Both the position numbers and the translations under genes were made by a program. 22,048 bases of DNA from a virus. Under the pieces are notes generated by a model, which saw only the letters and a program-made list of their open reading frames with translations, did no database searches and was not told the DNA's origin. Within the stretch, counting starts at the first letter, position 1, and each line of letters begins with the position of its first letter. Where the stretch lies: positions 1 to 22,048 of IMG/VR virus record IMGVR_UViG_3300021511_000028; one strand, 5' to 3'. Positions 10,806 to 19,960 of this stretch are shown here, one piece after another.

Positions 10806-12056
10806 ATGCGCGTCAAACGATTTGATTTCGGATCCATTTCTAGCGTTGAACGACTCGACAACGGTTTTTTGCGTTGCCCGGGTCGAATCACCCGGACCGG
10901 CGTGTTCGCCTACCGCGACGCCGCCGGCAAGGTTCGAAACGAGTTGCGGTTACCCGTCGAGGTGTTTGACGCCGAATCGTTGCGTTCGTTCGGCCTCGCG
11001 CCGTTGACGAACAATCATCCTCCGGAAAACCTCGACGTTACCAACACGAGAAAATACCAGGTCGGAACCGTCGCCGAACCAAAGGCCGACGGCGGGTTTG
11101 TTGCCGCGACGGTACAAATCACCGACGCCGACGCGATCGCCGCGGTCGAATCAGGAAAACAGGAATTGTCCTGCGGCTATGTGTGCGACCTCGATTTTTC
11201 GCCCGGCGTTACTGCCGGAATCGAAGGGATTCCCGACGGTTTGCGTTTTGACGCAATCCAACGCCAGATCCGCGGGAATCATGTTGCCATTGTTGAAAAG
11301 GGGCGCGCCGGCGCCGAGGCGAGTTTGCGCCTCGATTCGGGCGACGCCATTTGCGACGACGCCGCCGGCGTTTTGCAATCTGAACAGAATCAGGATAAAA
11401 CGCCGCCAAACCTTGGAGGGTCGATAATGAAAATCACCGTCGACGGTATCACCTTGGATCTCGACGAGAACGCCGGCCAAAACGTGGCCAAGGCGATTTC
11501 GCGCCGGGACAACGAGATCGAAACCATGCAAAACGACGCAAAGGCGCAAGCCGAGTCGATTGCAAAAGAAAAGGCCCGCGCCGACAAGGCGACCGAGGAT
11601 TTGGAGGCGTTGCAAAAGAAGCATGACGACGCGACCTCGGCCGATTCCGTCCGCGAGGCGATCAATTCGCGCCTCGGCCTCGAGCGTTCCGCCCTCGAAA
11701 TCCTCGGCGAGAAAACCGACGACGGCAAGGATTGGAAATTGGACGTCATGACCGACGACGAGATCCGCAAAGACGTGATCGTCAAAACGTCGCCGACCGC
11801 CGCCGACAAACTCGACGACGCCGATCCGGTCTACATCGCCGCCCGTTTCGATCAAGCGATCGACACGTTCAAGGCGACCGCCGCCGACGACGACGACAAG
11901 GGCAAGACGAGAAATGACGGCCTCGACCGCGCCCGCGCCGCCGCGAACAATCCGGCCGGCCCAAAGAACGACGCCGCCGACGCCCGTTCCCGAATGGTCG
12001 TCGATCACTACAATGCCGGACGCCGACCAATCGGCGCCGCCGCCTCGGAGGGTTGA
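10806..12056 (+). CDS. DUF2213 head maturation protease fused to scaffold
   Basis: The 416-residue protein has an N-terminal protease of the DUF2213 type and a C-terminal scaffold. In the protease, L-T-N-N-H-P-P (His71), Q-E-L-S-C-G-Y (Ser122) and I-R-G-N-H-V-A-I-V (His159) are candidates for a Ser-His-His triad like that of herpesvirus assemblin-fold enzymes. From about residue 208 the protein becomes a charged coiled coil, then an acidic, Asp/Ala-rich tail, as in scaffolds. Such fusions control capsid assembly and then degrade the scaffold. ATG 10806 has GAGGG at 10795-10799. An internal start at 11427 likely makes scaffold alone. It lies between the minor head and cement genes. Triad assignments are inferred from motif position. 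Confidence 0.88.
   Translation: MRVKRFDFGSISSVERLDNGFLRCPGRITRTGVFAYRDAAGKVRNELRLPVEVFDAESLRSFGLAPLTNNHPPENLDVTNTRKYQVGTVAEPKADGGFVAATVQITDADAIAAVESGKQELSCGYVCDLDFSPGVTAGIEGIPDGLRFDAIQRQIRGNHVAIVEKGRAGAEASLRLDSGDAICDDAAGVLQSEQNQDKTPPNLGGSIMKITVDGITLDLDENAGQNVAKAISRRDNEIETMQNDAKAQAESIAKEKARADKATEDLEALQKKHDDATSADSVREAINSRLGLERSALEILGEKTDDGKDWKLDVMTDDEIRKDVIVKTSPTAADKLDDADPVYIAARFDQAIDTFKATAADDDDKGKTRNDGLDRARAAANNPAGPKNDAADARSRMVVDHYNAGRRPIGAAASEG
11427..12056 (+). CDS. Nested scaffold protein from an internal in-frame start
   Basis: Within the protease gene, GGAGGG at 11415-11420 stands six bases before an in-frame ATG at 11427. This is a stronger ribosome-binding site than the one at the start of the whole gene. 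Translation from here would give a 209-residue scaffold lacking the protease: about 15 N-terminal residues in a beta-like stretch, a coiled coil (E-I-E-T-M-Q-N-D-A-K through L-E-A-L-Q-K-K-H), then a mixed and finally Asp/Ala-rich tail. The same arrangement is known for lambda C and Nu3. No protein evidence is available here; the call rests on the site and the domain boundary. Confidence 0.72.
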   Translation: MKITVDGITLDLDENAGQNVAKAISRRDNEIETMQNDAKAQAESIAKEKARADKATEDLEALQKKHDDATSADSVREAINSRLGLERSALEILGEKTDDGKDWKLDVMTDDEIRKDVIVKTSPTAADKLDDADPVYIAARFDQAIDTFKATAADDDDKGKTRNDGLDRARAAANNPAGPKNDAADARSRMVVDHYNAGRRPIGAAASEG

Positions 12057-17216: not shown

Positions 17217-17648
17217 ATGGGAGTCAAAACGTACGACGCTAGCCAAGTCGCAATGTTGTTCGGTCCAATCGAGATCACCGACGGCTTGGCCGACGGGACG
17301 TTTGTTTCGGTTGAGCAAAACGAGGATTCGTTCGCGTTGACCGTCGGCGCCGACGGCGAGGCGTGCAGATCGAAAACAAACAACAAGTCGGGTCGCGTGA
17401 CATTCACGGTTTTGCAATCGTCACTCGCAAACGACCTATTGTCGGCCGCGCATAACCTCGACGTAGCGTCGCCAAACGGTGACGGGATCGCGCCGTTAAT
17501 GGTCAAGGATAACTCCGGACGAACAATCGTCGCCGCCGAAAAGGCTTGGATCGTTCGGCAACCGACGACCGAGTTTGCGCGCGAGGTGTCGAGTCGAGAA
17601 TGGATCATAGAAACCGACGCCTTGAATTCCCAGGTTGGCGGAAACTAG
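17217..17648 (+). CDS. Tail tube protein (DUF3277)
   Basis: The 143-residue protein has the typical DUF3277 line-up: Y-D-A-S-Q-V near the N-terminus, then G-L-A-D-G-T-F-V-S-V, E-Q-N-E-D-S-F-A-L-T-V-G-A-D-G-E, R-S-K-T-N-N-K-S-G-R-V-T, Q-S-S-L-A-N-D, and later I-V-A-A-E-K-A-W-I. DUF3277 proteins form the inner tube of contractile tails, and the position directly after the sheath gene agrees. GGAGGG at 17202-17207 lies upstream of ATG 17217. A 33-base gap with no obvious terminator follows. Confidence 0.9.
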   Translation: MGVKTYDASQVAMLFGPIEITDGLADGTFVSVEQNEDSFALTVGADGEACRSKTNNKSGRVTFTVLQSSLANDLLSAAHNLDVASPNGDGIAPLMVKDNSGRTIVAAEKAWIVRQPTTEFAREVSSREWIIETDALNSQVGGN

Positions 17649-17681: not shown

Positions 17682-18122
17682 ATGAGTCAAGCGAGGGTTT
17701 TCACCGAAACAATTGACGGCGTCGAATACCGAATGCGGCCATTGCCGCCGCGGGTTGCGTTGCATTTCTTGCGGCGCGTTCTGCAAATCGTCGCGCCCGG
17801 TGTCGGGACAACGATCGACAATGTCGAGGGCGGTTTGTCCGAGATTTTGGATATGTCGGCAAAGGAAATCGGCCTAGGCGGTCTGATCTCCGGTGCAATG
17901 GCCGAGTTGTCTGACAAGGATTTGGATTGGGCAAACGATTTGCTCGCGAAACAATGCGAGGTCGTGAAAGGCCCGAACGAGGCGCCGCGGTTGTCGGACA
18001 TTTTCGACGTTCATTTTCAGGGCCGGATCAAACATTGGTTTTCGTGGGTCACATGGGCGGCGAAAACTCAATATTCGGATTTTTTCGACGACTCGGCGCC
18101 CAACGACGGCCCGCCGAGTTGA
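17682..18122 (+). CDS. Tail assembly chaperone, zero-frame product
   Basis: This 146-residue protein lies between the tube and tape-measure genes, the place of tail assembly chaperones, and is helical throughout: R-P-L-P-P-R-V-A-L-H-F-L-R-R near residue 18, a central hydrophobic Gly/Met segment, then W-A-N-D-L-L-A-K-Q. Chaperones of this type keep the tape measure soluble and help the tube assemble; they are not in the mature virion in lambda-like systems. GGAGA at 17670-17674 is seven bases before ATG 17682. Close to the 3' end is a slippery heptamer, at codons 134-135, and a continuing -1 frame. Most ribosomes should stop at 18120-18122; a fraction is likely to shift and make a longer protein. 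Confidence 0.85.
   Translation: MSQARVFTETIDGVEYRMRPLPPRVALHFLRRVLQIVAPGVGTTIDNVEGGLSEILDMSAKEIGLGGLISGAMAELSDKDLDWANDLLAKQCEVVKGPNEAPRLSDIFDVHFQGRIKHWFSWVTWAAKTQYSDFFDDSAPNDGPPS
18080..18121 (+). promoter_or_regulatory. Programmed -1 ribosomal frameshift signal
   Basis: T TTT TTC at 18080-18086 is a perfect X XXY YYZ heptamer aligned with the chaperone frame. Bases 18089-18098 pair with 18112-18121 over ten base pairs (one G-U), with a 13-base loop at 18099-18111. The stem includes most of the zero-frame UGA. The spacer of 2-4 bases is shorter than the usual 5-9, so only part of the stem may be in place at the shift. Confidence 0.78.
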
Positions 18123-18316
18123 AACAAGGCGGCGGCGGTGTTCCCGTCCCGCAACATTTGGATTGGATCGTTTGGCGCGTCGTTGGGAATCGGATCGCGA
18201 CATTGGAGGAAATAGATCAGCATTATTGCTTGATCGATCTGCTAGACGCGAACGATACTCTTGACCTATTGGCCGAGGCGGAACGGGCAACGACTCCCAA
18301 CACGCCGAGGCGTTGA
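18086..18316 (+). CDS. Tail assembly chaperone frameshift extension (G-T type)
   Basis: Reading after a -1 shift gives a 76-residue extension, for a fusion of about 211 residues. The extension has L-D-W-I-V-W-R, L-E-E-I-D-Q-H-Y-C-L-I-D-L-L-D-A-N-D-T-L-D and a helical, acidic end. That W-I-V-W-R ... D-L-L-D-A-N-x-x-L-D pattern is familiar from the second part of tail chaperones, or from small genes behind them. It corresponds in position to lambda gpT, which recruits tail proteins to the tape measure. The alternative is separate translation from a TTG at 18119 that overlaps the zero-frame stop (65 residues), but no clear SD precedes it. The tape-measure gene starts nine bases after the stop. 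Confidence 0.78.
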   Translation, partial: RRLGAQRRPAELKQGGGGVPVPQHLDWIVWRVVGNRIATLEEIDQHYCLIDLLDANDTLDLLAEAERATTPNTPRR

Positions 18317-18325
18317 GGTGTCGAA

Positions 18326-19960
18326 ATGGTCGTTCGTGAGTTGATCGCAAAACTCGGCCTGAAAATCGACAAAGGCTCGTTCCAAAAAGCCGATTCCGGA
18401 ATCAGCAAGATCAAAGGCGCCGTTGCACGACTCGCCGCCGGGTTGGCTGCCGGCCTCGCGGTCAAACGAATCAAGGATATTACCGAGGAAACCGCGCGCC
18501 TCGGCGACCAGATCGCCAAGACGTCGGAAAAACTCGGCGTCGGCGCGGCCGCATTGCAGGAATTGAGGCACGCCGCCGAGTTGACCGGGATCCCAACGCG
18601 AACGATGGATATGGCGTTGCAACGGTTTACCCGTCGCGCCGCCGAGGCCGCCAAGGGAACCGGCGAGGCAAAGGACGCCCTCAAACAAATGGGCGTGCGT
18701 CTGAAAGATAGCCAAGGGCAACTCCGGCCGACCGAGGAATTGTTGGGCGACGTCGCCGACGCAATGGCGAAAACCAAAGGCGACGGCGACCGGTTGCGCC
18801 TCGCGTTCAAATTGTTCGATTCAGAGGGCGCCGCGTTGGTCAACACGCTAAAAGGCGGAAAGGCCGCCCTCGAGGAAATGCGTCAAGAGGCGCGCGACCT
18901 CGGCGGCATTATGGACGACGAGTTGATCGCGTTGTCGGTCGAATATACCGACGAATCGTTGCGCGCGACAAAGGCATTGCGCGGCGTCAAGAACATGATC
19001 GCGCGAAACCTATTGCCCGTTCTGATCAAGGGCAAACAAGGGATCGTCGAATGGATCAAGGTGAACCGGGAATGGTTGCGGTCGAATATCACCGGCGCAA
19101 TCGACAAAACGGTTCGCGTTGTTTCCGCCCTCGCGCGAGGGATCCGCGTCATAGTGATCGGGTTGCGCGAGGCATGGCGGAACGCCGATCCGGTGACAAA
19201 GGCGTTGTTGAAAATGTCGGCCGCGGCCGCCGTTCTCGCGGTGATCCTCACCTCGCCGATCCTAACCTTGTTGGCGATCGGGTTGGCGGTCGGCCTCGTG
19301 TTGGAAGATTTCGAGAGGTGGCAAACCGGCGGCGTTTCCGTGATCGGCGCCCTGGACAAAAAATTGGGCGGTTTCTTGTCGGCCATTCGCGACGGAGAAA
19401 CCGACCTATTCAACCTCGGGGTTGCTTGGGATTGGTGGACCGACCGAGGGATCGAGGCGTTGAATGTCGTCGGCGAGGCGATCGGCGTTGCCGTCAAATG
19501 GTGGGGCCAACAATTCAAATGGCTATTTTGGGATCTACCGGTGAAGACCGTTGATCGTTTCCTGAAATGGTTTATTGCCAAACTCGAGGGAACAAAGGTC
19601 GGTCAAACAATCGCACGTCTTGCCGGCGCGGCCGGTTCGATTGCGGGCGGCGGCGGTGTCGGCGAGGCGATCGACGTGTTGCGAGGCAAGGGCAAAACGG
19701 CGTTCGCGGCGGCCGGGAATGTCGCCGGCAATCTGCAAGGGCAAGTCGCGACCGCGCCGGTTGGTTCCGTTTCCAAGGGCGCCGGCGCCCCGTCGATAAC
19801 AATGGCGCCGACAACGAACCTCGCGATCCACAACGCGCAAAACCTCGACGAAACGCAATTGGCTGATAAGGTCGGCCAACGGATCGGGGAGGAAAACGAT
19901 CGCATGTTGCGGAACGCGGCCGCCGCCTATTCGACGGCGCCGGAACCGGTCGGAGGTTAG
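18326..19960 (+). CDS. Tape measure protein
   Basis: At 544 residues this is the longest tail protein here except none of the others, and it sits after the chaperone. It begins with an amphipathic N-terminus, then long Ala/Lys/Arg/Glu-rich helices (I-S-K-I-K-G-A-V-A-R-L-A-A-G-L), a region with K-T-S-E-K-L-G-V, common to tape measures of the TP901-like type, and a hydrophobic segment (about residues 300-330) that could enter the membrane. It ends with a low-complexity Gly/Ala/Ser/Thr-rich part. Tape measures set tail length and are ejected ahead of the DNA. At about 0.15 nm per residue the tail would be near 80 nm, a short contractile tail; that is inference. ATG 18326 has GAGGTG just upstream. 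Confidence 0.88.
   Translation: MVVRELIAKLGLKIDKGSFQKADSGISKIKGAVARLAAGLAAGLAVKRIKDITEETARLGDQIAKTSEKLGVGAAALQELRHAAELTGIPTRTMDMALQRFTRRAAEAAKGTGEAKDALKQMGVRLKDSQGQLRPTEELLGDVADAMAKTKGDGDRLRLAFKLFDSEGAALVNTLKGGKAALEEMRQEARDLGGIMDDELIALSVEYTDESLRATKALRGVKNMIARNLLPVLIKGKQGIVEWIKVNREWLRSNITGAIDKTVRVVSALARGIRVIVIGLREAWRNADPVTKALLKMSAAAAVLAVILTSPILTLLAIGLAVGLVLEDFERWQTGGVSVIGALDKKLGGFLSAIRDGETDLFNLGVAWDWWTDRGIEALNVVGEAIGVAVKWWGQQFKWLFWDLPVKTVDRFLKWFIAKLEGTKVGQTIARLAGAAGSIAGGGGVGEAIDVLRGKGKTAFAAAGNVAGNLQGQVATAPVGSVSKGAGAPSITMAPTTNLAIHNAQNLDETQLADKVGQRIGEENDRMLRNAAAAYSTAPEPVGG

Follow-up and report, generated by a model that had tools for sequence, protein, structure and literature searches.

The window analyzed here is a stretch of 22,048 bases from an IMG/VR virus record. 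Gene matches identify in it the structural module of a phage with a contractile tail, with genes for terminase, portal, capsid, neck, a DUF3383-type sheath, a tube-like protein, chaperone, tape measure and baseplate hub. Chaperone-family matches and the neighbouring genes give the order sheath-tube-chaperone-tape measure and, as in loci of the lambda G/GT type, two overlapping ORFs lie between the tail tube (17217-17648) and tape measure (start at 18326) genes. The features of the locus are the following:

17217..17648, plus strand: tail tube-like structural protein, the 5' neighbour (phrog_280; Pfam KPP10_Orf10)
17682..18122, plus strand: tail assembly chaperone, zero-frame product of 146 aa (TAC-N, putative lambda gpG-like role), from Pfam/PHROG matches, ORF and Shine-Dalgarno sequence
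18080..18086, plus strand: slippery heptamer T TTT TTC in slip phase, from the sequence, with a counterpart in-phase heptamer in 43 of 53 related contigs
18080..18316, plus strand: -1 frame ORF, predicted C-terminal domain of the fusion (putative gpT-like role), conserved in relatives
18089..18121, plus strand: hairpin of 10 bp, likely stimulator, with a stable 7-bp core (18092-18098 / 18112-18118), from the predicted fold and a z-score minimum in relatives
18120..18122, plus strand: zero-frame stop UGA, beginning inside the 3' arm of the stem
18326..19960, plus strand: tail length tape measure protein, the 3' neighbour (phrog_8125, E 5e-46)

The 17682-18122 ORF matched Pfam family PF21822 (Phage_TAC_15) with 58.1 bits against a cut-off of 22, residues 12-137 aligning with profile positions 1-122 of 127, and the tail assembly chaperone family phrog_1613 with an E value of 6e-11; PF10876 scored 25.1 bits at a cut-off of 25. 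The Shine-Dalgarno pairing at its start amounts to -6.6 kcal/mol. No relatives of the chaperone were found by tblastn among isolated phages or by a pattern search in viral contigs. The AlphaFold2 model of the chaperone (pLDDT 77) had no PDB match with an E value below 0.001, the top one being the weak match 5ir0 (E 0.35, probability 0.87). This entry is an unknown protein from a PICI-like element in Vibrio cholerae, and the weak fold match could hint at a chaperone-like protein there.

As proposed in the initial annotation, the heptamer lies in slip phase: read from the start at 17682, positions 18081-83 and 18084-86 are zero-frame codons, which makes the site, GGATTTTTTC in the window, a perfect X XXY YYZ sequence. 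From the heptamer onwards the -1 frame meets no stop before the one at 18314-18316, which gives 78 codons counted from 18080 or 76 after the slip, and it ends ten bases 5' of the tape measure start. The predicted fusion would thus have 135 + 76 = 211 residues, which agrees with the length given in the initial annotation; its predicted tryptic junction peptide is TQYSDFFR and the zero-frame end is TQYSDFFDDSAPNDGPPS. The motif is not rare by itself, as the window holds 10 TTTTTTC sites (13.7 expected) and its 16 main genes contain 18 in-phase XXXYYYZ motifs, the chaperone site among them. For this reason the case is built on a combination of features and on the relatives; at the sequence level, it is the coincidence of phase, place, open and conserved -1 frame and hairpin, together with the conservation in relatives, that stands above chance. 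The window's heptamer is included in the motif classes that are most efficient in E. coli, V_VV.A_AA.R and H_HH.U_UU.Y (PMC4066793). Most motifs at the relatives' sites fall into these top classes too, and T TTT TTA, present at 8 of 41 loci, lies outside them. Elsewhere in the window an in-phase TTTTTTG occurs at 10865-10871, inside ORF 10806-12056, with 34 open -1 codons; it is probably a chance occurrence.

A first set of relatives was collected with the neighbouring tube protein, a search blind to the frameshift, and comprised nine contigs. Each of the nine has a heptamer in phase, overlapped by a -1 ORF of 79-87 aa that ends near the tape measure gene. The heptamers were T TTT TTC (four contigs), G GGA AAG (three) and G GGA AAA (two). 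The -1 domain of the window is 38-54% identical to those of these relatives, with 13 invariant positions in the ten sequences, around WxxWRLV and DANEALDL, whereas the chaperone parts share only 21-38% identity. By tblastn, the -1 domain reached locus L012 with an E value of 3e-26, and a search for its relatives in cellular genomes found none.

A wider search with the alignment of the -1 domain yielded 53 related viral contigs, and this comparison, which the initial annotation had asked for, showed that 43 of them, including the 20 most similar to the window, have a slippery heptamer in phase where one is expected. In-phase T6 heptamers were present in the finished genomes of phages RHEph04, ctsHD2, Erebus and E. 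coli phage pEC-M719-6WT.1. Relatives lacking both the heptamer and the open -1 frame, which had been named beforehand as evidence against a frameshift, did not turn up. Eight contigs (L032, L040, L042, L043, L044, L058, L060 and L061, several of them very GC-rich) have the -1 domain and no in-phase XXXYYYZ, and in two more no such motif was judged credible. The eight may use single-tetramer or other slip sites; for L032, the first exception, where a perfect heptamer is missing, slippage on the single tetramer A_AAA is a possibility. In the overlaps where both frames are open, 41 distinct loci had 54 in-phase XXXYYYZ motifs, and the two other phases had 8 and 5. This contrast is overstated because the loci were chosen for an in-phase site; a fair chance expectation is about 6-7 per phase, which the observed number still exceeds by a wide margin.

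Concerning the downstream structure, the 10-bp stem described earlier was recovered, 18089-18098 pairing with 18112-18121 at -19.1 kcal/mol with a z-score of -3.4 (a single one of 200 shuffles did as well), and the zero-frame UGA begins within its 3' arm. The three basal pairs (C-G, G-U and A-U) are weak. Leaving them aside, the 7-bp core begins 5 nt past the heptamer and keeps -14.2 kcal/mol with these 5 nt held open, which is a usual spacing and not the unusually short spacer that had been suggested. The stop inside the stem is no peculiarity of the window either, as that of locus L055 is also inside its predicted stem. With a 5-nt core spacer in the window, predicted stems that begin about 0-9 nt past the heptamer in the relatives and the case of L055, we rejected the idea that a short spacer or the position of the stop makes this site special; a distinct shift rate set by them is not supported. 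A longer fold of the region (104 nt) favours a different structure, and an Rfam search of the region gave no family match.

The relatives suggest that the hairpin is a consistent part of the signal in this uncultivated myovirus group. When a 45-nt sliding window was folded at offsets from -300 to +190, the mean z-score directly behind the heptamer (offset 0) was -3.12 for the 18 close loci and -1.90 for all 41 loci; at the other offsets it stayed between about +0.5 and -0.85, and was near 0 at most of them. Several distant relatives have weak hairpins. In the stem that accompanies T-type heptamers, 89% of the cells are paired, against 37-52% in slid controls, and compensatory changes occur at two base pairs (C-G/U-A and G-C/C-G). 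In the stem of G-type loci, 97% of the cells pair, against 27-51% in slid controls; this stem had zero double changes and is uninformative with regard to covariation.

We are confident that these features are best explained by a programmed -1 ribosomal frameshift of the lambda G/GT type in the tail assembly chaperone gene; judging from the sequence, the phage very probably makes two versions of its tail chaperone through a -1 slip at a fixed spot. The lambda-like layout recognized in the initial annotation is supported by the relatives, which keep a heptamer in phase and a -1 domain without stops and, within the close clade, a hairpin as well. The DNA itself shows the heptamer and its phase, a -1 domain that is open and conserved, the gene order and, by prediction, the hairpin; from these we infer that slippage occurs, and its rate and the roles of the two products would be as follows. 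The majority of ribosomes would stay in the zero frame and stop at the UGA at 18120, giving the 146-aa chaperone, and a minority would pause on T TTT TTC against the hairpin. There the P- and A-site tRNAs would slip one base back (UUU UUC to UUU UUU), and translation would run on to 18316 to produce the 211-aa fusion. By analogy with lambda G and GT, the chaperone part would coat the tape measure protein and the extra domain would recruit tail tube subunits.

Three other explanations were weighed against the frameshift. Ribosomes that stop at the UGA at 18120 could restart at the TTG at 18119, which overlaps the stop (TTGA) and lies in the -1 frame, and would then make a separate -1 protein of 65 aa. 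This re-initiation, put forward earlier as the alternative, is disfavoured and we regard it as very improbable: the Shine-Dalgarno pairing at the TTG is only -2.1 kcal/mol, against -6.6 to -10.0 kcal/mol at the chaperone, tube, tape measure, sheath and capsid starts, and in 32 of the 36 loci scored the -1 frame offers no start codon ahead of the conserved domain. Moreover, in most close relatives the zero-frame stop is near the WxxWR motif, too late for re-initiation to give the whole -1 domain, and the heptamers would be left unexplained.

The run of six T at the site, and runs of seven T in three distinct loci and of seven A in two, would also be compatible with an RNA polymerase that drops or adds bases on the run, the shifted frame being read from an altered mRNA. 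At the A AAA AAA slip sites of L049 (1474) and L059 (1480) such transcriptional slippage is possible too. However, the runs are only six long in most loci, and the GGGAAAG and GGGAAAA loci do the same job without them. Transcriptional slippage would also make the codon phase of the motif irrelevant, yet the phase is kept and the hairpin is placed where a ribosome needs it, so that this mechanism seems to us slightly less credible still than re-initiation. The abundance of TTTTTTC in this genome leaves some room for a reading in which no shift is programmed and the two frames reflect a common gene overlap or an indel from sequencing. But dozens of independent contigs, and the four finished genomes mentioned above, show this frame offset again together with a heptamer, and we give this explanation the least credit of all.

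The probable programmed frameshift at this locus is a further case of a known kind. A review (PMC5009743, which cites Levin 1993 and Xu 2004, 2013 and 2014 for the lambda chaperone frameshift) covers the G/GT shift of lambda, how widely it is conserved among tailed phages and the higher rate seen in P2. With lambda, the window shares a heptamer for a -1 shift close to the 3' end of the chaperone gene, between the tube and tape measure genes, and, as predicted from its sequence, a minor fusion with a C-terminal domain. The two differ in the heptamer, T TTT TTC in the window and G GGA AAG in lambda, although close relatives of the window do use G GGA AAG. Unlike lambda, the window has a strong hairpin just downstream, belongs to a contractile-tail phage and encodes a chaperone of a different family (Phage_TAC_15). 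With this locus, the reach of the lambda-type frameshift in chaperone genes is extended to a group of uncultivated myoviruses.

A -1 frameshift has already been reported in 2025 for related phage families: the paper on phage Adele (PMC12846349, December 2025) argues that Vandenendeviridae and Andersonviridae have a conserved one at the same locus, its motif being GTTTTT. The DUF3383 sheath lineage, the gene order and a -1 ORF before the tape measure gene, often annotated there as a separate hypothetical gene, are common to these families and the window. However, the window does not have the GTTTTT motif, and phage JG004 reads G GTT TTT, its TTTTTTC being out of phase. The window clade differs from that site in its perfect X XXY YYZ heptamers and its hairpin; the terms 'hairpin', 'stem-loop' and 'secondary structure' are absent from the text of PMC12846349. 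RHEph04 and Erebus resemble the window in their in-phase TTTTTTC / TTTTTTT and in a -1 ORF with a DAHEALDL motif, but they are distant in sequence, and the -1 ORF is unannotated in RHEph04 and represented only by a short fragment in Erebus. What the present locus adds to the known systems is the hairpin and the turnover of the heptamer, with a G-type site two codons upstream of the T-type one.

The identity of the heptamer varies among relatives (T6C/A/T, GGGAAAG/A and A7), and its phase, its place and the -1 domain persist. On protein alignments the G GGA AAG/A site is located two codons upstream of T TTT TTN and the stem stays in place; one identical codon for all heptamers was therefore rejected. 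In these alignments QWGKSL of the chaperone and GKVLERLG of the -1 frame mark the G-type site, and QYSDFF and FFRRLG the T-type site; the G-type loci compared were L013, L014, L015, L019, L027 and L030, and the T-type ones the window, L012, L016, L022 and L024. L024, with T TTT TTC, adjoins the six G-type loci in the tree (98/93) and has the same stem sequence as theirs. On the tree, the G label requires two separate changes and the four heptamer classes require five; it is rooted at the midpoint only, so the direction of change is not given. We consider it reasonably likely that the heptamer turned over within one orthologous chaperone gene, with a clade of six distinct G GGA AAG/A loci among T TTT TTN relatives and the stimulating hairpin fixed, in which case the signal would be modular, its hairpin and slip-site positions evolving independently. 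If so, the clade would offer a natural series in which the influence of spacer and heptamer on the fusion ratio could be measured; as a natural experiment on frameshift signals, the turnover is small but usable.

The frameshift would also correct the annotation of such loci, giving a 211-aa fusion in a region that gene callers leave empty or fill with a truncated ORF. In the public records of ctsHD2, RHEph04, Erebus and JG004, the -1 domain is either unannotated or appears as a truncated ORF from an internal start. The positions concerned are 2585-2704 in L065, 2529-2746 in L066, 1564-1677 in L069 and 662-814 in L070.
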